Shown: piece after piece, positions 33,315-57,195 of the stretch
Position numbering within the stretch: the first letter of the stretch is position 1
How the letters are laid out: every line of letters starts with the position of its first letter
NCBI GenBank assembly: GCA_009801085.1
Contig: VNWV01000026.1
Location: forward strand, 62,001 to 126,000
Reading direction: 5' to 3'
Length of the DNA: 64,000 nt
DNA from: Lasiodiplodia sp. COLG20
Lineage: Eukaryota > Ascomycota > Dothideomycetes > Botryosphaeriales > Botryosphaeriaceae
Translations under genes and position numbers: made by a program
The notes under the pieces: generated by a model
The model's input: the letters and a program-made list of their open reading frames with translations, nothing else
Database searches by the model: none
What the model was told of the DNA's origin: nothing

Positions 33315-36300
33315 ATGGCGCGGTTGGGTCTTTCGTTCGCTACTCTCGCTCTCTGCTTAATCCAGGTTTACGCTCTGCCGTACCTCGACGAGTACGCAGA
33401 CTGGAACCTTAATACCAAGCAGGGCGAAACCGACCCGACCAAATACTGGGGACAATGGGAAGACCACGACTTCCAGCCGTCGCCAGACAACTGGCGCTTC
33501 CCCTTCTACACGCTCTTCCTCGACCGCTTCGTCAACGGTGACCCCTCCAACGATAACATCAATGGCACCCTTTTCGAGGTCGACATCACCTCCAACCAGC
33601 TCCGCTATGGCGGCGACATCGAGGGCCTCATCGACACGCTGGACTACATTCAGGGCATGGGCATCAAGGTTCGTCTCCGCCTAGCGCGCCCTCCCGCAGC
33701 GCTGTGACTGACGCGCCGACAGGGCATCTACATCGCCGGCAGCCCCTTCATGAACTTGCCGTGGGCCGCAGACTCGTACTCGCCCACCGACCTGACTCTG
33801 CTCGACTGGCACTTTGGTAACATCACGACATGGCGCAACGCCATCAGCGAGATCCACGAGCGTGGCATGTACGGTACGCAATGATCTTCAACGATGCGCA
33901 CGGCGATCGGTGCTGACGCGCAAGCAGTGATCCTCGACAACACGATCGCCACCATGAGCGACCTCATCGGTTTCGAAGGCTATCTCAACGGCACCGCGCC
34001 CTTCAAGTGGGACGAACACAACGCTGTCTACAAGACGTCAAGGCGCTACTGGGATTTCGACGTGTCCAATGACCAGAATGACGACTGCGATGTGCCCAAG
34101 TTTTGGAACAAGGATGCGACCATGGTTGGATCCAACGTCACGGACAACTTCAAGACCTGCAAGAAGTCCGAGTTTGATCTGGTGAGTAATGATTTGAGCC
34201 ACTAGCGCCTCCTGTCCGCTAACCCTTCCCAGTTCGGAGACGTCGAGTCGTTCGGAACCTACCCCGAATACCAGAAGCAACTGTCCAAGTTCTCGTTCGT
34301 CCAGGACCGCTTGAAGGAATGGGACCCGACCGTGCTGAAGAAGCTGAAGCTCTATTCGTGCATTGCCATCAACATGCTGGATTTTGACGGTTTCCGTATC
34401 GACAAGCAGCTGACCATCACCCTGGAAGCCCAGGCCGAGTGGTCGCAGTCTATCCGCGAGTGCGCCGCCAAGGTTGGCAAGAAGAACTTCTTGATTTCCG
34501 GCGAAATTGTGTCGGACAACACGCTTGGATCCATCTACATTGGCAGGGGCAAGGAGCCGCAGATGAAATGGGCTACCAACGAGGAGTCTTACACGGCCAA
34601 CCTCACCTGGCCGGAAGCGCCCGCCATCTACCAGCGCAACACCAGCGCTGTCGATGCCTGGGCCTTCCACTACACGGTTTACAGAAGTCTTCTGCGTTTC
34701 TTGGGCATTGACGGTATCTACGAGGCCGAGCGCGATCTCCCCATCGACTGGGTTGACGCGTGGAACGAGATGGTCAAGACCAACGATATGATCAACGCCA
34801 ACACGGGCAAGTTTGACCCGCGCCATCTTTACGGAGCCACCAACCAGGACGTTTTCCGCTGGCCGGGTATCACGAACGGAACTGACAGGAATTTGGCTGG
34901 CCTTTTCGTTACGACCATGATTATGCCCGGTATCCCGCTCCTTTTCTTCGGTGAGGAGCAAGCTTACTACGTCCTGGAGAGTACTGCCGACAACTACATT
35001 TTCGGCAGACAGCCCCTGTCCTCGTCTCTCGCCTGGCAAGACCACGGCTGCTACAGCATTCCCTTCACCAAGTACACCAACTTCCCGCTCAACACGTCCC
35101 TGACCGGATGCAAGGACGACACCGTGAGCTACGATCACCGTGATCCCTCGAATCCCGTCAGGAACATCATCAAGCGCATGTACGAGCTGAGAGCCGCTTT
35201 CCCGACGCTCAACGATGGTTTTGAGCTGCAGAAGCTCTCGAACTTGACGTACTGGAACTATCTGCCCGGTTCGAAGGGTACTGGCACAGAAATGGGCGTT
35301 CGCAGTGTTGTGAGAATGCGCCACGAGGCCACCCAGGACTTCTCCGGTTCCGGTGCAGGTAACCTGCCCGTCTGGCTTGTGTACACCAACGATAACACCA
35401 CGACGACCTACACTTTCGACTGTTCGGACAAGAACAAGTCTTTGATCGCGCCCTACGATTCTGGAACCACGGTCAAGAACCTGTTCTATCCCTACGAAGA
35501 GTACACGCTCAAGTCGTCGCCCCTGGAGCTTGGCCTGGAAGACCAGACTGGCTCCAACGGCTGCTTGGATGAGCTCGAGATGAAGCAGTGGGGTTTCAAG
35601 GCTTTCGTGCCCGTTGACGATTTCGTCGATCCCAACCCCGTCATTACCAAGTTTGTGCCCGGTCATGACGCCCGCGTCAAGGCGACGGCGGAGAAGGAGT
35701 CGGTTGACATCGAGATCCACTTCTCCCACGAGATGAGCTGCGACTCGCTCACGAAGGCCATTTCCTTTACCTCGGATTCCGCCGACGGCTCGTCTCCAAC
35801 CATTTCCAACGCGCAATGCACCACTATGAGCAACGCCACTGAACATGACTACAATGGCGCTATTCCCAGCGCTTGGAAGTACGCGGCAACGCTGACGGAC
35901 GTGGCTCACGGTGTCCACCGCATTACCATCACCAACGCGACCACCACGGCAGGACTGAAGACCGGAACCAAGGATCACTTCATGATCCGCGTGGGTGACG
36001 AGAAGAACCCTATCACTTTCCCCAGGACTGCCAAGTTCTCGTCTACTCTTGTGGGCGGATCGAGCGACAATCTGATTGTTTCCCACAACGCGGCCGGTGC
36101 CACCAAGTTCCGCGCGTCGAGAGATTGGGGTTCGACCTGGACCGAGTGGCTTGAATACACGGGCGAGAACTACACGATGCCTGCGTTGAAGTGGACCGGT
36201 ACCAGCGACCAGAAGTGGGATGGCGAGCACGTCATTGTGCAGTACTGGGGTCGTCTTGTTTCCAGCAGTGCCCACCAGCAGGAGGGTGATTTGAACAGCG

Positions 36301-39300
36301 AGTCGACGCGTGCCTTCCCGCACATTTTCGTCAACGGTCCTTACAACCAGTACGGCTACGACGGTGGTCTGCACAACCTGGCGACCTTGAACACGACTGG
36401 CGGTGGCGGTTACCACTTCGATCTCGCCACCGAATGGCCGGCCAAGGTCCAGTTCAACATCTGGGGCATGAATCCAGATGGCAAGCCTGACCAGTCTTTC
36501 ATCTACGGTGATATCGACGGTGACGGTGTCCTTGACCGCCTTCCCCCGTCTTCGCTGACGTCCAACACGGTGAACATCTCGAGCCTTCCGTCCAGCCCCT
36601 ACACGGCGTACAGGCTTGCCGTTTCTTACGATGGCAAGTCCCTGACTCTCCAGCCTACCGGCCACATGGGCTACCAGCTTACGCTGTTCATTCTGCTCTG
36701 GGTCATTCCCGTCCTGACTGCCGCGGCCGTCATTTGGCTCTACATGAAGTCGTTCTACCAGGTCAAGTTCAACACCAACGGTGTTGCGCAAGCAGCGAAG
36801 GCATCGATTCCTCTTGCTCTTCGTCGCAGGATGAAGCGCAAGGCCGAGTACGAGAAGGCGGCTATGGAGTCTACTCCCAACCTACAGGTCACCACTGCGC
36901 CCGGCTCTCCTGGCGAGGTTTCTGCTCTCGCTGCCGCAGCTGGTCATGGAAAGCGCCGCGCCGTTCTCATTGCCACCATGGAGTACGATATTGAGGATTG
37001 GAACATCAAGATTAAGATTGGTGGTCTCGGTGTCATGGCGCAGCTCATGGGCAAGTCCCTTGGTCACCAGGATCTGATCTGGGTCGTTCCCTGCGTTGGT
37101 GGTGTCGACTACCCCGTCGACGAGGTCGCCGAGCCCATGTTCATTACCATCATGGACAAGGTCTACCAGATCAACGTCGGTATCCACAAGCTCCGCAACA
37201 TCACCTACGTTCTCCTCGACGCCCCCGTCTTCCGCCAGCAGACCAAGTCTGAGCCTTACCCGCCTCGTATGGACGACCTCGACAGTGGTATCTACTACTC
37301 TGCTTGGAACCAGTGTATCGCCGAGACGGTCAAGCGTTTCCCCCAGATCGACCTGTACCACATCAACGATTACCACGGAGCCCTGGCGCCGCTGTACCTC
37401 CTGCCTAACCTCATTCCTTGCGCTCTCTCGCTCCACAACGCCGAGTTCCAGGGTCTCTGGCCCATGAGGACGCACGCTCAGGTCAAGGAAGTTTGCTCGG
37501 TCTTCAATTTGGATGAGGAAATCGCCAAGCGCTACGTGCAGTTCGGTGAAGTCTTCAACTTGCTCCACGCCGCCGCCAGTTATCTGCGTATTCACCAGAA
37601 GGGTTTCGGTGCCGTCGGTGTCTCTAGGAAGTACGGTAAGCGTTCGTTTGCTCGTTACCCCATTTTCTGGGGTCTGCCGAACATTGGTTCTCTCCCCAAC
37701 CCCGATCCTACCGATACCGGCGAGTGGGACAGGAATGAGAAGGTTGATGGCGATGTTCCCGTTGATCCGGCCTACGAGGCCAGCCGTGGCGAATTGAAGA
37801 GGCAGGCGCAAGAATGGGCCGGCCTGAACCAGGATCCCGAGGCTGAGCTTTTCGTGTTCGTCGGTCGTTGGTCTATGCAAAAGGGTGTCGATCTCATCGC
37901 CGACGTGTTCCCCTCGGTTCTCAAGAACTACCCCAAGGTTCAGCTCATCGCCATCGGTCCCGTCATCGATCTGTACGGCCGTTTCGCGGCCATCAAGCTG
38001 CAGAAGATCATGGAACTGTTCCCCGGCCGCGTCTACTCCAAGCCCGAGTTCACTGCTCTCCCGCCTTTCATCTTCTCCGGTGCTGAGTTCGCTCTGATTC
38101 CGTCCCGTGACGAGCCCTTCGGTCTGGTCGCTGTCGAGTTTGGTCGTAAGGGTGCTCTTGGTGTCGGTGCGCGTGTCGGTGGTCTGGGTCAGATGCCTGG
38201 TTGGTGGTTCACCGTCGAGTCGATGACTCCCAAGCATTTGATCCGCCAGTTCAAGTCTGCCATTCACGACGCTCTCGCCTCCGACACCCCGACCAGGGCC
38301 CAGATGCGTGCTCGTTCGGCCAAGCAGCGTTTCCCCGTCGCCCAGTGGGTCGAGGATTTGGAGACTCTCCAGTCGACGTGTATCAAGATCAACCACGAGA
38401 ACGCTGGCAAGCACAGGGGCCTTGGTCTCTCCTCGCCTTCTATGCTCAGTCTCTTCGGCAAGTCTCCCAAGCTCTCGCCCAATGCCTCGCAACTTTCGTT
38501 CGGCATGGGCACGCCAACTGGCTCCCGTCCCGTCTCGGCCGCTCACCTGTCCGTTCCTCCGCACTCGCCTGGCCAACCTTCTCCTCGTCCCGACGACATC
38601 TACTCGCCCGCACTCAACTCTCCCGCCTCGTCTCCCGGCCAGCACGACGTTCTGCTGCCCCCTCCCCCGCTTTTGGGCGCCAACCTCGTTGGTGGTGGTC
38701 CCGACAGAGGAAGTATAGCAAGTTTCAACACCACCTTCAGCAACTCGTCGGTTCTCAGTTTGGACACGGTTGTTGGCTCGCGGCACGACATGGCTCTCCA
38801 GAAGGTCGACCCGTCCTTCACTGACGCCAATGGCTACTTCTCGAGAGAGTTCGAGCAAAAGCTGGAGAAGCTCAACCCGAGCACATCGGAGAACCAGCTG
38901 TGCATTGAGGACATCCTGGTCAAGAGCGAGAAGAAGTGGCACAACAATTACCGCGATGCCAAGCTGGGCAAGACGCTGGACGATAGCTCTATGCTCTCGC
39001 TCGGCCTTCCCAACACGCGCCCTTCGAGTCCTGCTCCTTCTGCTCTCAGATCGGCCAGTGGCAGAGACAGCCCCTTCGGCGGCCGCGATACCATGACCGA
39101 GATGGACGACGCCAGCGGCAGCTACTCTTCGTACGACGACATGCACCCGCTGGGCAATGGCTACGACACGCCGACGGGAATCAAGAAGTTCATGATGATC
39201 AAGCTTGGCGATTGGCCCATCTACTCGCTCTTCCTGGCTCTTGGTCAGACTATCGCGGCAAACTCGTACCAGGTGTCTCTGCTTTCCGGTGAAATCGGTC

Positions 39301-40542
39301 AGTCGGCCACTACTCTGTACATCATCGCGACCATTTTCGCCGTCTCTTCGTTGATATGGTGGTACCTGTTCAGAAGGATAAAGTCTTACTATGTCCTCTC
39401 TCTGCCGTTTGTTTTGTACGGCGCGGCTTTCTTCTGCGTTGGCGTTGCTCCTTTCGCCACTTCGTCGATTGGAAAGACGTGGGCGCAGCGTGTGGGCTCG
39501 GGTCTCTATTCGGTCGCATCTGCCAGTGGTTCCATCTACTTTGCCCAGAACTTTGGTGACGAAGGTAAGCAATACATGCACTCTAATCTTGCAGGCAGGA
39601 CTAACCGTTTCTATAGGTGGTGCTCCCATCAAGACCTGGATTCTCCGCGCCTGTCTCGTTCAGGGTACCCAGCAGATCTACATTAGTGCCCTCTGGTACT
39701 GGGGATCTGCCCTCACTCAGCTTTCGGACTCAGGTGTCGAGACGCAAACATCTACCCCCACGGCCGTCATTGCCGGTGTCTGTCTTCCGCTGGCCGTTAT
39801 CTTGTGGGCTATCGCTGCCCTCGTCTACCTTGGACTTCCCAGCTACTACCGCCAGATCCCCGGTGATGTGCCCGACTTCTACCGCTCCCTGTACCGCCGT
39901 AAGATCATCATGTGGTTCTTTATCACCGTCTTCGTCCAGAACTACTGGCTCGCCGCGCCTTACGGCCGCAACTGGCGCTTCCTCTGGACGACCAACCACG
40001 CCAGCGCTTGGCAGATCGCCATCCTCGTCATCTTCTTCTTCATCATCCTCTGGGCCGCCGCCTTCTGGTACCTCGGCCGCCTCTCCAAGTCACACTCGTG
40101 GATCCTCCCCATGTTCGCCATCGGTGTCGGCGCCCCCCGCTGGGCGCAGATGCTCTGGGGTGTTTCGGGCATCGCCAACTACATGCCCTGGATCGGCAAC
40201 CAGACGGCCTCGGCCCTCGTCGCGCGCGCCCTGTGGCTGTGGCTCGGCGTTCTGGACGCCCTTCAGGGTGTCGGCTTCGGTATGATGCTGCTGCAGACGA
40301 TGACGCGTTTCCACAACACCTTCTCCCTCATCGCCGCCCAGTTCATCGGTTCGGTAGCGACCATCCTCGGCCGCGCGACGGCGCCGGATCGTCTCGGCCC
40401 TGGACCCGTTTTCCCCAACTTCGCCGTTGTTGGTGCCTCGGGTTTGGCGAACGCCAGCTTTTGGATTTGCTTGTTGATGCAGCTCGGCATCTGCGTCGGC
40501 TTCGCGACCTTCTTCAGAAAGGAGCAGCTCATGAAGCCGTAA
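33315..40542 (+). CDS. ags1: Cell-wall alpha-1,3-glucan synthase
   Basis: Exons 33315-33668, 33723-33873, 33928-34181, 34233-39564 and 39617-40542 give 2338 residues, close to the usual 2400. Order of parts: signal peptide (residues 1-20); extracellular GH13 amylase-like domain with DGFRID and SGEI catalytic motifs; a membrane segment (LTLFILLWVIPVLTAAAVIW, about 1075-1095); a cytosolic GT5 glycogen-synthase-like domain starting at KIKIGGLGVMAQL (about 1180) with the DEPFGLVAVEFGRKG donor-site motif; a Ser/Pro-rich linker; and a multi-pass C-terminal domain (from about 1910) that probably exports the chain. The enzyme makes alpha-1,3-glucan at the plasma membrane from UDP-glucose. It is divergent from the GPI amylase, and a GH71 glucanase lies 19 kb downstream. 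Strong GC-ending codon use makes long antisense frames, which are not genes. Confidence 0.97.
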
Positions 40543-43442: not shown

Positions 43443-44876
43443 ATGGTTTCCACAATCGAACCTTTGCTCTCTGAGCTGAATATCGCAGTTGGCCAGGCGA
43501 AGGATGGGATCCTTCCAGAACAAGCCAGAATGGAAGCGTTGCAAGCCGCAACCAAGCTTGCTGCCGCGCTCGAGAAGCCGGAGGATGCTCTACTGAAGAT
43601 TGCTTACAGTGTACGTTCCTCCCCTCTTAATCATGGTGCAGTCCCTGATGGAAATCTAGCCAGTGATCTGCATGGCCATCCGTTGCGGTGTCCAGATGGA
43701 CATATTCTCCGTGCTTTCGGAGAAAGAAGAGACGTCGGCTCAGGAACTTGCGAGAAGGTCTGGTGCCAATGAAGTGTTAATCCGTATGTCCATCGGGCTC
43801 CTTGCTCAGGCAGATGATATAGCTGATACACCCCAAAGGACGGCTTCTGCGCCCTCTCACTGCTGCAGGCTACATTGCCGAGAAGGGCCCCGGGGTGTAC
43901 GGCCCTACCGCCATTTCTAGACAACTGCACCAGAGGGTAACAGAGGGAATGGTGAAGTTCATGTAAGCCATACGCAAAGATATCATACCCAGGCATTTTT
44001 CAAAACTAACGAACGTCTTCGGAACAAAGCTGGGACCTCGGCATGCCCTCCATCACCGCCGCACCCCACTGGTTGAGCCAGCACGGCTGGCAGCTCAACC
44101 CCACCGACGCAACCAATGGACCCTTTCAAGCCGGCCACAAGACGGACCTGGATATGTTCGACTTCGCCCTCGCCAACAAAGAGAAGTTCTGGGACGACAT
44201 GAACACCTTTTTCGAAGGCGACCGCGGCAGCCGGCCTCATTGGGCTGAGTGGTTTCCGGTGCAGGACAAACTGCTCGGTAGTAATGTCCTGAAGCCCGAT
44301 GCTCCGGTGATCGTAGATGTTGGTGGGGGCCGCGGCCATGATATTGCTGGATTCAGGAAGCACTTCCCAGACCTGCCGGGGAGGCTTGTGTTGCAGGATC
44401 AGCAGCCTGTGCTGGATAGCATCGTCGCGATGGATCCAGTCATTGAAAAGCGTGCGTTGGATTTCTTCAATGAGGCGCCGGTGCCAGGTATGGTTTCTGT
44501 CTTTTCGTTTTGAGTTCCTAAAGCCCGCTCACCTTTGCTCGTAGGTGCGCGGATCTACTTTCTGAAGTTCATCATGCACGACTGGTCGGATGAGGATTGT
44601 CTTCGGATTCTGGAGAATGTGAAGCTTGCGATGGAAGAAGGCTACTCCTACTTGGTCATCGAGGAGTTCATCCTTCCAGATGAAGGATGCTCTTTGCTTC
44701 CGGCGGAATGGGATTTGATGATGATGATTTATTTGTGCGGGATGGAAAGGACGAAAAATCATTGGACAAATCTGCTTGGAAGAGCGGATCTTGCCGTGAA
44801 TGGGTTCTACAACCCACCTGGGAATGGACAAGGCATTATCGTCGCCGAGCTCCTGGAAAGTCACTCGAATTCATAG
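43443..44876 (+). CDS. SAM-dependent O-methyltransferase
   Basis: Exons 43443-43610, 43660-43783, 43839-43962, 44030-44487 and 44545-44876 give 401 residues, the usual length of fungal plant-type O-methyltransferases. An N-terminal helical dimerisation domain (winged-helix block RRLLRPLTAAGYIAEKGPG) precedes the methyltransferase fold. The SAM motif is IVDVGGGRGHDIAGF, followed by the acidic LQDQQ motif, and the catalytic histidine is in FIMHDWSDEDC. It should methylate a phenolic hydroxyl, as the aflatoxin/sterigmatocystin-pathway enzymes do. No synthase, P450 or transporter gene is adjacent, so the substrate is unknown and the gene may be an orphan. The second and third introns were placed by restoring the conserved LIRRLLRPL and WDLGMP blocks. 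Confidence 0.92.
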
Positions 44877-45513
44877 AAAGTAAAGTAGCATTTGCTAAAA
44901 TATAGCATCCGTTAGTAAGGATAAACTGTGGAAAGGCTGTCCTATAATCAGGCTGTCGTTATTGTTGTTTTAAAAGTTTTACTACTCCGTTGCTACCATC
45001 CCTAGCAAGCTTTGATATACCATGCATATAGCTCCACTACCTAAGTTGTTGAGCAATTTCTCATTTTATCCTCAGTTAGCTACCGTAGACGACTACAGTG
45101 ATCGATAATTGCAACGAATCAAAAGCGACTGAACAAAGATATAGGCACAGATTTTTTTTACAATATTCACTTTTTACCCTAATAAAATCGGTTGTTTCTA
45201 CAAGACCGGAACGATCTAGGAACAAATAATTCGATTGATGCGCTTCTCTGACGAATGAGACGGGTGTATACCGCTGTTGCGTAAGCAAGGTTCGGGACAG
45301 CAACCTCACTAGCGAATCTCCGCGGGGGTGGCTGCAGCAGCTGACCCCACCTATATTAATAGTCTGACAAGCTCAGCTTCAGTCCCCCGCACCTCTTACG
45401 GGCGATCTTCAGTTTCCTAGCCATCTGGCCCTCCGCCAGCAAGCCATCATATTGCATTTTGCTAATAGAATACGGATAAACCGAAACACCCGCCGACGTC
45501 GATCCTCGCAGCT
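44877..45513. other. Intergenic region
   Basis: About 640 bases, A+T-rich on the left. Holds the promoter of the hydrolase-Hsp70 gene. Nothing else seen. Confidence 0.5.
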
Positions 45514-48500
45514 ATGGCGCATATACCCCATGGGCTCAGCTTGGACCCATCTTCAGCCGGTTCTCAGTCCCATGCAGCTTACAAATCTGAAGGCAGAAAT
45601 GACCTCTCAAACCAGACAGCTTTCAGGCTGCACATCCTTGGCAAGCGGAACTGGAACCCATCACAAGTCGACGAAGAGGAGGCCGAGAAGCTCGTGAGGA
45701 AGGCATTCGATGTAGAGAATGATACGGAAGTCATCATCAAGTCGCTTGCTGACCACCCTGTGAGGAGGGCAGTTGTCGCAACCTTGAACTTCTCACGGAT
45801 ACCTACCAAGATCTCTCAAACTAGCATTCTGGTGCACGAATTTGAAGAACCCGTTCAGGGACTCTCTGTGAGTCTCGATACTCATTTCCACGGATTTACT
45901 CCTGTCCACCACAGGACGAGCTCTGAATATGAGTGCGAGTAAGACCTCTCACCCAGCTATGGAAAATATGTTGACATGATTTAGCTTTGTCGCCTTATCT
46001 GGACTTGGTGGCCATGCCTTTGGGTCATTCAAGTGCAGAGGTGGTGACTACATGTGGCTTCGCGATGATCTCCCCTTTTCCGTACCAGATTCCCGATCCT
46101 TCATCTACGGATACAATACCGAACTGCACGGCAGTACTTCTTTCCAAAGCCTTTATGATCTTGGGCTTGCTTTTAAAGATGCACTCAAATCATTACTCAG
46201 TGAAGACTTGAAGGTATAATAAATCCATAGGAATTGTCGATATACAGTCTTCTATTTGTCTAACAAAGCACAGAATGGTGTTCTAAAGCCTCTGATATTC
46301 TTGGGCCACAGTCTGGGCGGTTTAGTTCTCAAAGAGGTCTGCGAGGTTATAATATAACGGCTCGGTTTAGATTGCTAACTTTTTATAGGCTTTGTGTGAC
46401 ATGTCTACCAGTCCAGGGGTGGATGACAGACTGCTCCTGAAATCGATTCGAGCCATCCTCTTTTTTGGGACACCCAACCAAGGGATAGATATCAAGTCTT
46501 TGATCCCCATGGTTGAGGGACAAGCCAACGAGGACTTTCTCCGCTCACTTCGTACCGATTCTGTGGACCTCCAACGGCAAGCGCGGCAATGGTCAGAAGC
46601 ATTCGACAGCTCTCAATCAGACCTTATCTCTACTGGTCTAGAGATAATCTCGTATTACGAGACTTCCAATTCCCCGACTGCCGTCAAAGTTGATGGCAAA
46701 TGGAAGATGTCTGGACCATCCACCACACTAGTAGACAGATCCTCAGCTACCCACGGGCGCCCTTGGGAGACTAAATGGCGCTTCGTTCAGCCAATCAGTC
46801 GAGATCATTCGGGTCTTGTGAAATTTCGCACCCGTAATGACCATCAATATGTTGACCATGTCCTATGGCGACTTCAATCTTATAGTTAGTTTTAAAAACA
46901 TTCGACAAGTTTGAATAATCTTCAATAACACATTTTAACCAGGCCGACTGCATATGCACATGACTGATGAACAGAGTAAGGAATATTTTCATACACATCC
47001 AATACGGCGGCCTATCACTGTTTTGCTAATTTCTCCTAGCTAATTCACCACCATTGAAAACTTGCGATCAAATTTTCCGACAGAATCACCAGTCGAGATC
47101 AGTAGAAGAAGAAAACAGTGAACTGAAAGCAACCGTGAAGTCTCTCGAAGAAGCACTTCAAATGGAGCGCCACAAGACCCAGGATCTCCGCAGGATATTA
47201 ACCGAGAATTACGGGCATACTCATGTTGCTCTAGATGCTGTGAAGAGAGACAAGCTTGTGATAGGGCTGGAATTTGGCGTGGAATTCAGCAGGTGATAAT
47301 GAGAATTTGCTCGTTCTACTAGTTTGAGGCAGTCTTACTAATATGTGGCTTCAGGGTTGCTTATGCAGTCGCTACGAAACCAGAACAAGTCTTCTGTATC
47401 GACACGTGGCCCGGTTCCTATGATAAGAAATTTCCGGAGGCTCCAACAGTCATCAAGTATGATGAGAAGTTGAAGACCGGTCTCAAGTGGGGCTGGAAAG
47501 TGGATCCCAAGATCAACCGGATCCATTACATCCCAATTCTGCTCGAACCCGAATATGGCAAATTCTCAGGCATGCTCGGCAAAACGTTGACCGAAATGAA
47601 GAATTCGAGCAAAGATGCCACGCAGATCACCGGAGACTACATTAACGCCATTTTCCAGCACGCTCTGCAGCAGATCAAGCAGTCATTTTTAACAGACGAC
47701 CTCGAGGGTTACGAGAAGGAGTATGTCATTTCGATGTCGGCCCTATCGTCGGATACAGCCAAAGACAAAGCGCTGCTTGTAAGAGTTTTGAACTCTTTTC
47801 TATGCGGTAATTGGCTAATTGATATCCATCACTAGGCTGCAGGAACGGCAAAATTCAGCCCTATCACTATGGTCGAAGAGTTGGAAGCAGCTGCACTATA
47901 CACTCTTCATTTCAATCGCGGAAATGGGTTGCAGGTCGGCGACGCGATCGTAGTCTGTGATGCCGGATATTCAACGGTGGATATTATCTCTTATGAGATC
48001 ATGGATCTGACGCCTTTGGAACTTGAAGAGATAATACCACGCTCATGTAATTCCCTGAAATACTTAAAACATAGAAGTGAGGCCCTAATACTACGTAGGC
48101 GGCATTGAGGGATCCACTAGGTTGGAACAACGAGTTTGTCAACGGCTGATTAACGAACTTGGCATGTCGGCTTTTGATTTGCTGACACATACGTTGGACT
48201 TTCGATTAGCGATGCAGTCATTCGAATATGAGATCAAGCCTGGATTTTGCGGGAGGGACGATGACAAGCTTGTCAGCGTCCCGATAGCTAAGCTGAAAGA
48301 CAGACAGTGGAGCGGTTCTCGCCTGGACTCCATTGACATTCCACGGTAAAATATTTTCATTTCTTACTAGGCACAGCTTCGATTTCTAACAGGCATGGCT
48401 TAGAGAGACCCTGCTCGAGATGTTTGACACTCTCATCCGAGATATCGACAAATTGGTCACAGAGCAGCTCGACAAGGTTCACATCAAACGCCTGGGTCAT

Positions 48501-48824
48501 CTCAAAGGAGAATCCGTGAAGGTACAGTCTCTCGACTCAAGCCACTAAGATCTTGTTTAATCATAATAGGCTATATTTCTTGTCGGTAGTTTCGGCTCGA
48601 GCATATATCTGAAACAGGCAATGGAAAAGTCCCACCCGGGTATTCAGATTTTACAGCCCCCTGAAGCGTAAGTTTGCGGTCATATAGGATAACGCAAATG
48701 CTAACGTGTAATACAGACGGTCTGCAATGGTAAAGTAAGTTACATAGTTACTAACATCTCAATCTGCATCTCGTCCTACTAATATATTGCTAGGGGAGCC
48801 GTTTTAAGTAAAATACTACAATAG
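45514..48824 (+). CDS. Alpha/beta-hydrolase (SERAC1/sesB-like) - Hsp70-like fusion protein
   Basis: Thirteen exons: 45514-45938, 45985-46213, 46274-46336, 46389-46884, 46943-46975, 47040-47292, 47355-47778, 47836-48046, 48099-48345, 48404-48521, 48570-48667, 48717-48734 and 48794-48824; 881 residues, every junction in phase. Residues 1-140 lead to HFHGFTPVH. Then comes a serine-hydrolase domain: DFVALSGLGGHAFGSF, YMWLRDDLPF, nucleophile Ser231 in FLGHSLGGLVLKEAL, and a late histidine in ISRDHSGLVKF. A coiled coil (about 433-465) links to an Hsp70-like ATPase fold from about 488: LVIGLEFGVEFSRVAYA, VVCDAGYSTVDIISYEI, AIFLVGSFGSSIYLKQ. The phosphate motifs are altered and the far C-terminus is short. 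Hydrolase domains of this kind head many fungal NLR-like proteins, so a signalling or cell-death role is inferred. The donor of exon 3 is GTCTGC, a weak site. Confidence 0.8.
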
Positions 48825-49117
48825 GCTTCAGTTGCATTTAGTCAGCGAGTAATACTATAATGTTACCTTTGCTTCAAATATAACATTCTTCGCGGCTAAA
48901 GTTAACCCTATTTTATCGAGAAGCGAGATGGTAGTAAGAGCCGTGAAATTAAGGCAGCTCGTTAGTTTTTCTGTAATTTAACGGGGAAAAATGGTGTTGT
49001 TGCAATTGGTGATGGAAACGAATGATATTTTCCGGACTGGATGAGTGGCATGAGAAATGAGTGGGTGGTGGTCAACCGGATAGCTTGCTCTAGATATCAG
49101 CTTATTAAAGAAAAGTT
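48825..49117. other. AT-rich spacer
   Basis: About 290 bases, A+T-rich and without a gene. It lies where the missing C-terminal part of the Hsp70 domain and the missing N-terminal part of the next, broken gene would be expected; a deletion or degraded insertion is possible. Confidence 0.4.
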
Positions 49118-49531
49118 GTGTCCGTTCAGAAGATATTACAAGTAAAAAGAAGCGACCGTTATTTCCCTCCCAAATTAACGAGAGACCTGAGTACCATGCG
49201 AAACGCATGCGACACGATGTCCTTCCGCATTGACTCGGCTACCATGCAGCGCGAGATCGAGGAGTTGGACGTCGCGGACGTGGCGAGCATCGGGTGGCTG
49301 CTCGTGAGGGTGAAGGAGCAGGTGCCCGCCGACCACGTGCTGTGCATCATCGTGGATGCGGTGAGCTGCTTCGAAGATGGTGCTCGCCGCGCGGAAATGA
49401 AGGAGGCGACGAGAGTGCTGCTGGATCTGGGCTGGAGGGAGGACGGGCCTACGTATAAGCTCCTCATGACCGCTCCCATCTCGACTGTTTCTTTATGGAG
49501 TGTATTTGGGGAGTATGAAAGCACTGGCGAG

Positions 49532-49539
49532 GCTGAAAT
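49532..49539. repeat. Left target-site duplication of the MITE
   Basis: GCTGAAAT, identical to 49875-49882 on the other side of the element. Removing the element and one copy rejoins the host frame exactly. Confidence 0.93.
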
Positions 49540-49874
49540 CAGTGTGGTCAATCGTCCGTCCGGAGGCCATTGCGCGCGCGATTAGTTCAGGATTGAAATT
49601 ATATAAGCCAATCGCGCGCGCAAAAAAGACGCGTTTGAATACAAGGGTAGCACTAGCCAAATATAGGTTGGAGTACCGGGTGGGATGTAATTAAGCACCA
49701 GCCACGGTGTTAACCGCTTTGCCCCTATTTCGTTTACCCCTTCCTTTTTATCATCATACTTTCTTTCTAAGTAATTTAATCGATACCTCGTCGAAACTCA
49801 ATCGCGTGCGCGATTGGCTCTAAATCATGCGTTCAATCGCGCGCGCCCAAATGGACGGACGATTGACCACACTG
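49540..49874. mobile_element. hAT-like MITE with 22-base terminal inverted repeats
   Basis: A 335-base non-coding element. Both ends carry the same 22-base inverted repeat without mismatch (49540-49561 and 49853-49874), beginning CAGTGTGGTCAATCG. The 8-base target duplication GCTGAAAT is perfect (49532-49539 and 49875-49882). An 8-base duplication and ends starting CAGTG are typical of the hAT superfamily. Inside the ends the sequence CAATCGCGCGCGC and near copies recur in both orientations (subterminal repeats). There is no transposase, so it must move with an enzyme coded elsewhere. Perfect ends and target site mean a fairly recent insertion without RIP. Confidence 0.93.
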
Positions 49875-49882
49875 GCTGAAAT
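49875..49882. repeat. Right target-site duplication of the MITE
   Basis: GCTGAAAT, the second copy of the 8-base host target site. Confidence 0.93.
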
Positions 49883-50167
49883 CATGGAGGTTTCGAACGT
49901 GGCGAATCACCCGGAAGGGTTTGCCGCGCTTGATTGGGAGACTTTAGGTGGTGACGGGACGAACAGTGGTGAACTCAGCTTCTAGAATTATTTGAGAACA
50001 TCACACTTCGAGTTTTGACTCGGCAGCTCACTCTCGTGAAGTATTGTTCCAGATCTATGGAATGTAAATTCGACTTGGTTGAGATAGCGCGCACTGTCGA
50101 CGAAGCTCTCAATAATTTGCACGCACAACGGAATAACCCTTTCTATCTAACTATAGCGAGAATTTAA

Positions 50168-50495
50168 GGACCAGATTGGATCTCAACGGGCAGGTTGAAG
50201 CACAGTGTCGTGGAAGGTGCTCCATCTGATGCCCTTGTTCTGGGAACGAAATGGCGCCGTGGCTTTGAGCTGCGGGAAATGCATGCAACGAGTAACAAAG
50301 CTGCCGACTAGTCTTAACGCCCATGGAAATTTTTTCGCCTATGCCAAGGTGTTCCTCGGGTGTGACAAACAAAGAGGACGGTTTCAGAACGTGAGAGAGT
50401 CTTTGTCATTGTCGTCGCGCTCCCACACAACTTCATCTCCTTTCCACGGTAGCTATTCTTTCCGCAAAACGCAGCGGAGAACTTAGTATTGCCTC
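50168..50495. other. Intergenic region
   Basis: About 330 bases upstream of the next gene; no features seen. Confidence 0.45.
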
Positions 50496-55455: not shown

Positions 55456-57195
55456 TTACGTTGTAGATGAGAAAGATTGAAATATCGGTGGTTTTGGCCT
55501 ACCTGACTCCTTCGAACCTGACTTCCGTCGTAATTCGGGTCGCGGAAATGGAAACGGAGGACGAGGTATGAGAACACGTGGTAGCGGAGTGATTGAAGGC
55601 TGATCTGGGTCCCAGACTGGCGCTTTCGTATTGCGGGACAAAGCGTAGACAGTACTATCTAGTCGGTCGGAGACCTCTTTGGAATGCAGCCTTCTCTCAG
55701 GCTTGCTTTTGGTGCATTTGTAGATGAGATCGACTGTCTGGAAGACCCAGGGATTTTCTTTTCCGAATCTAGATGTCATGTCATCCAACCAACGATCAAC
55801 CTCGAATTTTCGCACTGCTTTCCCCCCTTTGATGTCGAAGAACGGACCTTCCTTCCTGTTCTCAAATTCCAAAGCTCCAGATTGTCCGCCCAATAAGAAA
55901 GCAAGAGTCGAGGCGAGAATGCAGCCAAAGGAATAGACGTCATTCTTTGGACTAATGGCCTTCTTTCCAGTGCTCATCACGATCTCGGGAGGTGGGTACA
56001 AACCGCTTTTGTAGTATGTATCCTGAGGCACGACCGACATGTATCCAGGCAATGGCAGGGCATCCTCCCGAATGATCGAAAGTCCAAAGTCGATAACCTT
56101 CCATTCCCCTGCTGGCGACCTCTCTGTGGGTTCAGTTGCAATGACGATGTTCTTCAGATGGAGATCTCCGTGAACGCCCTCATGGTGTCGCCGAGACTCG
56201 CCTTTGATGTTCTGATGAAGATGGTAAATAGCTTCTGCCAGCTTGCTCATTTCACAGAGAATGGCTTGTAGGGCGTTCGGTGCTTGGAGGATCTTTTGAC
56301 GCATTTTTCTGCCTCGCTCCGAGTCACTGAGTAGGAGTTCGTGGAGGCTGCAGACCGCAAGCGGGAAAAGAATGCCAGCTTCTTGCCCGTAGGTCAAGTT
56401 CGCAACACTGTCCATAATGTTGTCGTGCCGCGAGTTTTCGAGTTTCTCAAGGTTTCGGAGTTCTCTCACATAGTCTCCAGGCCGTCCACTTGTGAACTTC
56501 TTCCAGGCGAATTGGTAGAGTGCATTCTGCCAGGCAAATTAAATCAGCGAGTGTTCAAGTACTGTGCTCTCTTACTTTACCTCCTGAGTAGAACCTCTAA
56601 TATCGGGTGCCAGAAACTTTCCTGGTATTGTAACTTTCATCACCGTGGAGAATGCACCAGAGCCAATCTCCTCCATGTGACTCGACAAGAATGGCGGTCG
56701 GTATCTTTCGCTTTTGAGGTTGTTGTTAGGGCCAATGATGATGGGGATGAAGGCCCACTGGTTGCGCTCAAAATGTCGGGACGTGATCTGGTCGCATCCG
56801 AGATAAATTGAGATCTTTCCTCGCTCGAGTGGTAAGCCTTCATCGACCACGGTTCCGGTACGCAAAAGAGGATATTGGACCATGCTCTTGAACTTGTCCC
56901 AATCCCTCCAATCGCAGTATACCATCACGGACAGAACGCGTAGCCTTCGGTCTCGTATATTTCCCATCGCCGTCTCGTAATCCTTCTCGAAAAGAACCTT
57001 GCACAGTATCTTCAGCCTGGAATCCCCGTCATCGTATGCCTCGGTCCAGAACTTCTTGATGTCATCCGGATGGAATATTTCTTTTTCTTCCTTGTTGACG
57101 CCCTCACATGTCCAATAAGCAACTTCTTCAAGTTCTCTCCGAAGTTTTGTGACCAGTTTGTGCGGTTTCTTTGTGAAGGTGTCGCGGATACCCAT
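55456..57195 (-). CDS. Protein kinase with unique N-terminal domain
   Basis: Two minus-strand exons, 57195-56581 and 56526-55456, give 561 residues. Residues 1-180 form a helical domain without a known name (LVTKLRRELEEVAYWTCEGV and a Trp-rich WRDWDKFK block). The kinase domain starts at EEIGSGAFSTVMKVTI (glycine loop) and continues across the intron to FAWKKF with the ATP-site lysine. The catalytic loop is VHGDLHLKNIVI, where HGD replaces HRD, the metal motif is VIDFGLS, and YPPPEIV takes the place of APE. All residues needed for phosphotransfer are present, so it is probably active. The C-terminus is Pro/Arg-rich. Such kinases occur in expanded, variable families in Pezizomycotina; substrate unknown. 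An earlier in-frame TTG is not used as start. Confidence 0.87.

Follow-up and report, generated by a model that had tools for sequence, protein, structure and literature searches.

We analysed a 64,000-nucleotide stretch of DNA from the ascomycete Lasiodiplodia sp. COLG20 (contig VNWV01000026.1, positions 62,001 to 126,000 of the forward strand; hereafter the window), in which a SesB-like hydrolase sequence is followed directly by an Hsp70-like one on the plus strand, between positions 45514 and 48824. The locus is best explained, tentatively, as one chimeric gene that joins an intact SesB-like alpha/beta hydrolase, a coil-like segment and a degenerate HSPA12-like domain kept as protein, and we put the probability of this explanation at about 0.42. 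Judged from its sequence, the gene would combine a known effector with an unprecedented, degenerate partner, seen once. Its parts are as follows.

45514 to 46884, plus strand: SesB-like alpha/beta hydrolase, residues 1-404 (exons 1-4 with introns 1-3)
46310-46312, 46659-46661 and 46806-46808, plus strand: catalytic codons for S231, E330 (the likely acid) and H379, counted from the gene model
47040 to 47233, plus strand: linker and coil-like segment, about residues 416-480 (64 open codons in a coding-like frame)
47234 to 48824, plus strand: HSPA12-like Hsp70 nucleotide-binding domain (NBD), residues 481-881 (exons 6-13)

The gene model was rebuilt from the splice sites and reading frames of positions 44500 to 50000. 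This rebuilding was not blind, the ends, exon number, length and four junctions of an earlier note on this DNA being known, and it reproduced that note's 13-exon model at the same extent, with its junctions in phase and an 881-residue product. All 12 introns are GT-AG, 46 to 64 nucleotides long and phase-compatible.

45514-45938, 45985-46213, 46274-46336 and 46389-46884, plus strand: exons 1-4
46943-46975, 47040-47292, 47355-47778 and 47836-48046, plus strand: exons 5-8
48099-48345, 48404-48521, 48570-48667, 48717-48734 and 48794-48824, plus strand: exons 9-13
48822-48824, plus strand: stop codon TAG, at the end of exon 13

The poorest donor score of the 12 introns belongs to intron 3 (-3.34), for which an alternative in-phase donor lies at 46346; the choice alters three residues and leaves the argument unaffected.

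The N-terminal half closely resembles hydrolases of fungal NLR proteins. When the query protein was used to search for homologs, 92 of the 98 proteins found matched this half, and the top two were Fusarium proteins with NLR domains. Identity to the Fusarium NLR P0001 is 56% across 45% of the query and 60% if the aligned hydrolase segment alone is counted; a second Fusarium NLR-domain protein is 64% identical over 33% of the query. The GHSLGG nucleophile and late DH motif claimed earlier were both recovered, as S231 and a late Asp-His-Ser containing H379, and neither residue varies among the 74 core-spanning homologs that remained after a coverage filter had removed 18 of the 92. E330, conserved in 71 of the 74, is the likely third catalytic residue; D355 was considered as the acid and rejected, since only 22 of the 74 carry an aspartate there. 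The query alters none of the 17 near-invariant hydrolase columns (at least 97% conserved), where the other 74 homologs average 1.2%. By these comparisons the catalytic core of the hydrolase is intact. The Pfam family PF05057 (DUF676) has a cut-off of 20.3 bits, which neither this protein (15.5) nor its NLR relative P0001 (19.3) reaches. A structure model of the hydrolase relative P0036, a protein without precomputed NTPase domains, matches alpha/beta hydrolases of the PDB; this model is of low confidence (pLDDT 68; Foldseek template-modelling scores of 0.24-0.32 by query length) and was used for the fold alone.

The best-known role of SesB-like lipases is that of an effector domain in fungal NLRs, and passages of PMC4986451 and PMC12258605 present them as a canonical N-terminal class of these proteins. 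The genome of COLG20 agrees with this, as does the earlier note, which had placed hydrolases of this type in front of fungal NLRs. Its 123 hydrolase matches fall into 52 loci, this one included, and at least 41 of the 52 are followed within 2.5 kb on the same strand by a match to NPHP3_N, a STAND-type NTPase; the figure is a lower bound, as the best 150 of 222 candidates were scored. The five closest paralogs examined (L026-L030) all show NLR matches past the hydrolase. Among the 11 loci without a listed NPHP3_N match, one is the gene described here and one lies at a contig edge. In its 881 residues six Pfam families were matched at E-values up to 1, none above its cut-off: none of them is an NTPase such as NACHT or NB-ARC, and no ANK, TPR or WD40 repeats are among them. 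Likewise, no NPHP3_N match lies within 2.5 kb downstream of the gene among the matches listed. An Hsp70 fold instead occupies the usual place of the NTPase, as had been claimed.

The genome as a whole (43.5 Mb) holds a large NLR-type repertoire: NPHP3_N matches number at least 155, and SesB-like hydrolases occupy about 52 loci. Ten hydrolase matches other than that of this gene have no listed NPHP3_N match within 2.5 kb (C56:2090094, C12:3922387, C5:128716, C1:6894824, C1:7230999 and five others), and each of these may stand alone, be broken or have some other partner.

The assignment of the C-terminal half to the Hsp70 fold required a profile. Its closest relatives were P0003 from Trichoglossum hirsutum (48% identity) and P0099 from Thermoascus (45%), and the relatives carry source names such as 'actin-like ATPase domain-containing' and, in one case, 'Heat shock 70 kDa protein 12A'. 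A profile of these relatives matched DnaK in the PDB with an E-value of 3.4e-17 (best value 2e-15 with the query included), and the predicted structure of P0003 (pLDDT 88) matched DnaK at 2.8e-22. A search of the PDB with the Hsp70 half as a single sequence was discarded, having given no match at an E-value of 1. Pfam PF00012 (HSP70) is not listed for the 881-residue protein at E-values up to 1; it scores 31.6 bits in P0003, 37.1 in P0099 and 22.8 in P0120. Judged by the profile and structure matches, the fold claimed for this half stands.

The three loops of the predicted nucleotide site are all altered in this protein.

47270 to 47292, plus strand: phosphate-1 loop, degenerate, EFGVEFSR against DFGTTFSG or near variants (last codon spans intron 6)
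47959 to 47976, plus strand: phosphate-2 loop, degenerate, DAGYST against DAGGGT in relatives (from the alignment)
48579 to 48596, plus strand: adenosine loop, changed, LVGSFG against LVGGFG in relatives (from the alignment)

Every relative with letters at these positions keeps the loops intact (phosphate-1, DFG[TS]T, in 24 of 24; phosphate-2 in 27 of 27; adenosine in 28 of 28). We also counted, leaving each protein out in turn, changes at columns that are invariant among the 28 relatives. The query differs at 14 of 51 such columns; 21 of the 28 relatives alter none, P0118, P0100 and P0073 alter one each, P0099 two and P0064 three, and the most altered, P0077 and P0120, alter six each (of 57 and of 56 columns). 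With 24 relatives the query differs at 14 of 54, and P0115, whose mean identity of 0.37 equals that of the query, at none of the 54. P0077 and P0120, two distant relatives, retain all three loops. By the count at columns conserved to 95%, given below, general divergence alone is unremarkable, and it is the loss of all three loops that is unusual. The protein also ends where the NBD of P0003 ends, and the beta-rich domain that follows there (P0003 residues about 422-583) is missing, so that the Hsp70 half is, as far as sequence allows, not a whole Hsp70. With changes in all three loops it is probably no ATPase, and binding of ATP or ADP is unlikely. The 'Hsp70-fold ATPase' of the earlier note is thus upheld in its fold, by the DnaK matches, and not in its activity, given the altered loops, the unmatched Pfam HSP70 family and the absent C-terminal domain. 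Five other HSPA12-like loci were examined in the genome, and all five keep the motifs EPEAA and VGGFG intact; our phosphate-loop patterns matched none of the five, and those loops were left unjudged there.

Between the two halves lies the coil-like segment, of which the earlier note had made a coiled coil. The segment is there, and its match to Pfam SIKE is sub-threshold (19.8 bits against a cut-off of 24.3). The 64 codons ahead of the Hsp70 homology are open, with a probability of 0.025 by chance under base shuffling. The coil is matched by none of the 120 homologs of the two halves, and the searches of the genome for a second copy returned its own locus only for the coil and no further copy of the DNA from 47040 to 48860.

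The case for a single gene turns on the junction that connects exons 4, 5 and 6.

46885 to 46942, plus strand: intron 4, donor GTTAGT, acceptor AACCAG, the junction carrying the fusion
46943 to 46975, plus strand: exon 5, 33 nucleotides, phase-neutral, with in-frame ATGs at 46954 and 46960
46976 to 47039, plus strand: intron 5, CTAAT at -14, donor score 7.03, acceptor score 6.95

To evaluate the exons, we trained a codon-usage score on frames of at least 400 codons without a stop, taken from eight loci of this genome that are NLR-type or Hsp70-like; a few of these frames are possibly antisense. In exons 1-11, exon 5 and the coil exon included, the top-scoring frame is that of the gene model; for exon 5, 11 codons long, the scores per codon are 0.19 bits in this frame and -0.76 and -1.69 in the other two. 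The donor, branch-like site and acceptor of intron 5 are all good, and a raw motif scan found YTRAY, taken as branch-like, between -13 and -21 in 11 of the 12 introns. Retention of intron 4 would bring translation to a stop at 46887-46889, 5 nucleotides beyond the splice site, and the first in-frame ATG downstream of that stop (46889 to 46954) is 64 nucleotides away. We favour a fusion because phase is kept across introns 4 and 5, the gap is only these 64 nucleotides, exon 5 is coding-like, the 64-codon stretch is open and the coil is unmatched in homologs. Exons 4, 5 and 6 would then lie in one transcript, and the locus is probably one gene rather than two in tandem.

Several observations weigh against a single chimeric gene with a retained Hsp70-like domain. 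Intron 4 is the sole intron without a YTRAY site at -13 to -21; it has one at -8 instead, though an ATAAC near -17 can be read from its sequence. Exons 12 (6 codons) and 13 (10 codons) yield no coding score. At columns conserved to 95% the query is less set apart than at invariant ones, altering 17 of 71 where P0077 alters 16 of 81 and P0120 13 of 77. The lost motifs and lost C-terminal domain are compatible with a decaying locus as well, and a neutral simulation of the Hsp70 half, described below, left a fraction of 0.11 of the runs stop-free at 10% change. Finally, none of the 120 homologs, 92 matching the hydrolase half and 28 the Hsp70 half, contains both; the searches cover proteins of about 485-1541 residues, with the best 7995 and 7996 candidates by shared words scored, so that a fused protein of great length or divergence might escape them. 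The 28 relatives of the Hsp70 half, 486-748 residues long (P0099 and a few others being partial records), include none with a hydrolase match. The earlier note had set the absence of any homolog with both domains as a refuting outcome, and within the proteins searched that absence is what we found. It fits a one-off chimera as well as it fits two neighbouring genes. A profile search from a mixed alignment of both halves passed none of 7997 candidates at 1e-10, known relatives included, and is not counted as a negative.

The same pairing was sought elsewhere in the genome. Each of the other five HSPA12-like loci either is on a contig that has no hydrolase match or is separated from the nearest one by 109 kb or more, and among further HSP70-family matches the nearest to a hydrolase, judged by eye, is C1:229857, some 27 kb from C1:202556. 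No second hydrolase and Hsp70-like pair is present among the matches examined, an Hsp70-like partner occurring at this locus only. A repeated architecture in this genome was considered and set aside, the hydrolase, HSPA12-like and NPHP3_N matches giving it no support.

The alternative that survives best is a pair of tandem genes, a hydrolase gene ending at the TAG of 46887-46889 and a truncated Hsp70-like gene starting from the ATG at 46954 or 46960. We weighed it because of the branch site of intron 4, the poorest of the set, the in-frame ATGs within exon 5 and the lack of a fused homolog. The stop codon so close to the exon 4 splice site is what a separate hydrolase gene would need, and hydrolase homologs of 520-673 residues without precomputed Pfam domains exist (P0012, P0017, P0025, P0034 and P0036). 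Against these points, a terminator, a promoter and a 5' leader would need to fit into the 64 nucleotides, and two genes would not call for the preserved phase and frame over introns 4 and 5, for an exon 5 that is coding-like in the joined frame, or for a coil that even the Hsp70-half relatives lack. We regard two genes as possible, on the unlikely side.

A relic is less probable again. Here an Hsp70-like gene would have been broken by rearrangement beside a hydrolase gene, the joined frame would have arisen by chance or by a recent accident, and what is left of the Hsp70-like gene would be in the course of being lost. The missing C-terminal domain and the altered invariant columns fit such a history. 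The first 9 codons past the stop also fit the family profile, with 0.0028 of window positions scoring at or above them, and the fit weakens when 11 codons (0.016) or 12 (0.024) are taken. A further candidate remnant lies downstream.

50167 to 50307, minus strand: possible inverted relic of the C-terminal domain (match at 50271-50167)

This match spans 35 residues at 45.7% identity to P0003 (tblastn E-value 1.1e-5 over about 121 kb; phmmer 7.4e-5), and an inversion that cut the Hsp70-like gene is a possible reading of it. It was seen with one of 20 C-terminal queries, however, and the family profile of the C-terminal domain gave it no support (E-value 20). Two more weak matches to that domain, at 50.4-50.6 kb (E-values 6 and 16), were taken as chance. 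A relic is further opposed by the 396 codons of the Hsp70 half, which are free of stops under the gene model. In simulations of neutral change at 26% amino-acid change, the level seen at invariant columns extended to the entire half, none of 300 runs stayed stop-free over 396 codons, and at 15 and 20% the stop-free fractions were 0.03 and 0.01; the simulation used substitutions without insertions or deletions, and the intron model was itself chosen to keep the frame. This open frame, together with the coding-like codon usage of exons 6-11, favours some continuing selection on the Hsp70 half as a protein.

The hypothesis in its first form supposes that an Hsp70 sensor driven by ATP recognises misfolded or non-self protein and turns the hydrolase on. 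In its favour, an Hsp70 fold stands where the NTPase switch would be. It is very improbable, as its nucleotide switch would have to work with altered phosphate and adenosine loops and without the domain C-terminal to the NBD.

For the single chimeric gene we can hypothesise a mechanism in which the pseudo-Hsp70 domain replaces the NACHT-repeat half of an NLR-type protein. The coil would let the protein oligomerise, and the pseudo-Hsp70 domain would serve as a protein-binding platform, as bait or as brake, like an integrated decoy in an NLR. A change in its binding partner would free or cluster the hydrolase, which would then act on lipids. A nucleotide-driven switch is unlikely in such a protein. 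The reading we prefer is a binding platform through which the hydrolase is held back or clustered, perhaps as a decoy for factors acting on Hsp70-like proteins, and the five other HSPA12-like loci could be the originals of such a decoy domain. A more specific version, which we consider doubtful, is a switch-free immune executor without NACHT or NB-ARC, in which the dead Hsp70 would lure a factor of a parasite or mycovirus that exploits Hsp70-like proteins, and its engagement would release the lipase; such a protein would be a decoy-effector receptor reduced to two parts.

A known parallel is Ssz1, a non-canonical Hsp70 that probably acts by binding and not as an ATP-driven chaperone, which belongs to another Hsp70 subfamily and is without a hydrolase. 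It is called an atypical Hsp70 in the abstract of PMC8476630. In PMC9815663, one passage ties the SesB-like lipase class 'more indirectly' to regulated cell death. Extra domains are described as putative integrated decoys of fungal NLRs in parts of PMC12258605, an example being a PKinase domain from CHK-2 in Sordariales. The likeness to these is a host enzyme-family domain on an immune-type effector protein; the difference is that the precedents in those parts retain nucleotide-binding (NB) and repeat domains, neither of which was found here, and the lack of an NB domain belongs with the points that count against our explanation.

With fungal NLRs of the SesB-like, NACHT or NB-ARC, and ANK, TPR or WD40 type the gene has in common the hydrolase half with its catalytic serine and histidine, and it differs in having a coil and a pseudo-Hsp70 domain where NTPase and repeats were not found. 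To fungal HSPA12-like Hsp70 proteins it is alike in the NBD, at the 48% and 45% identity given above for P0003 and P0099, and differs in its hydrolase, its three altered loops and its lack of a beta-rich C-terminal domain. No hydrolase-Hsp70 fusion in fungi appeared in the titles and abstract openings of the open-licence PMC papers that the literature searches listed, and the term 'Hsp70' had zero occurrences in the main text of the papers on fungal NLRs and immunity that were searched by passage. If our explanation is true, a dead Hsp70 can govern an effector, and the NTPase switch is inessential to this enzyme class; chaperones would join the possible decoys in fungal immunity, and a receptor architecture would have been caught near its birth, as the combination was seen a single time. 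Should the junction prove false, the locus would still warn against inferring fungal gene fusions from phase alone.

Other features of the window surround the gene. An Rfam scan of the window gave no match. Directly upstream, at 44514-44876, is a Methyltransf_2 (O-methyltransferase) domain (E-value 9.5e-15), and farther off an open frame of 1826 codons (34206-39683) carries starch synthase-type glycosyltransferase domains, which we take to be possibly those of an alpha-glucan synthase. On the minus strand, 55459-56538 encodes a protein kinase domain (E-value 9.5e-13). Downstream of the gene, at 49540-49874, lies an element resembling a miniature inverted-repeat transposable element, with perfect terminal inverted repeats of 22 nucleotides and the 8-nucleotide direct repeat GCTGAAAT at both flanks. 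It was apparently inserted within a small open reading frame and is, we presume from the length of the repeat, hAT-like; a 94-base piece of it has one further partial copy in the genome (85%).

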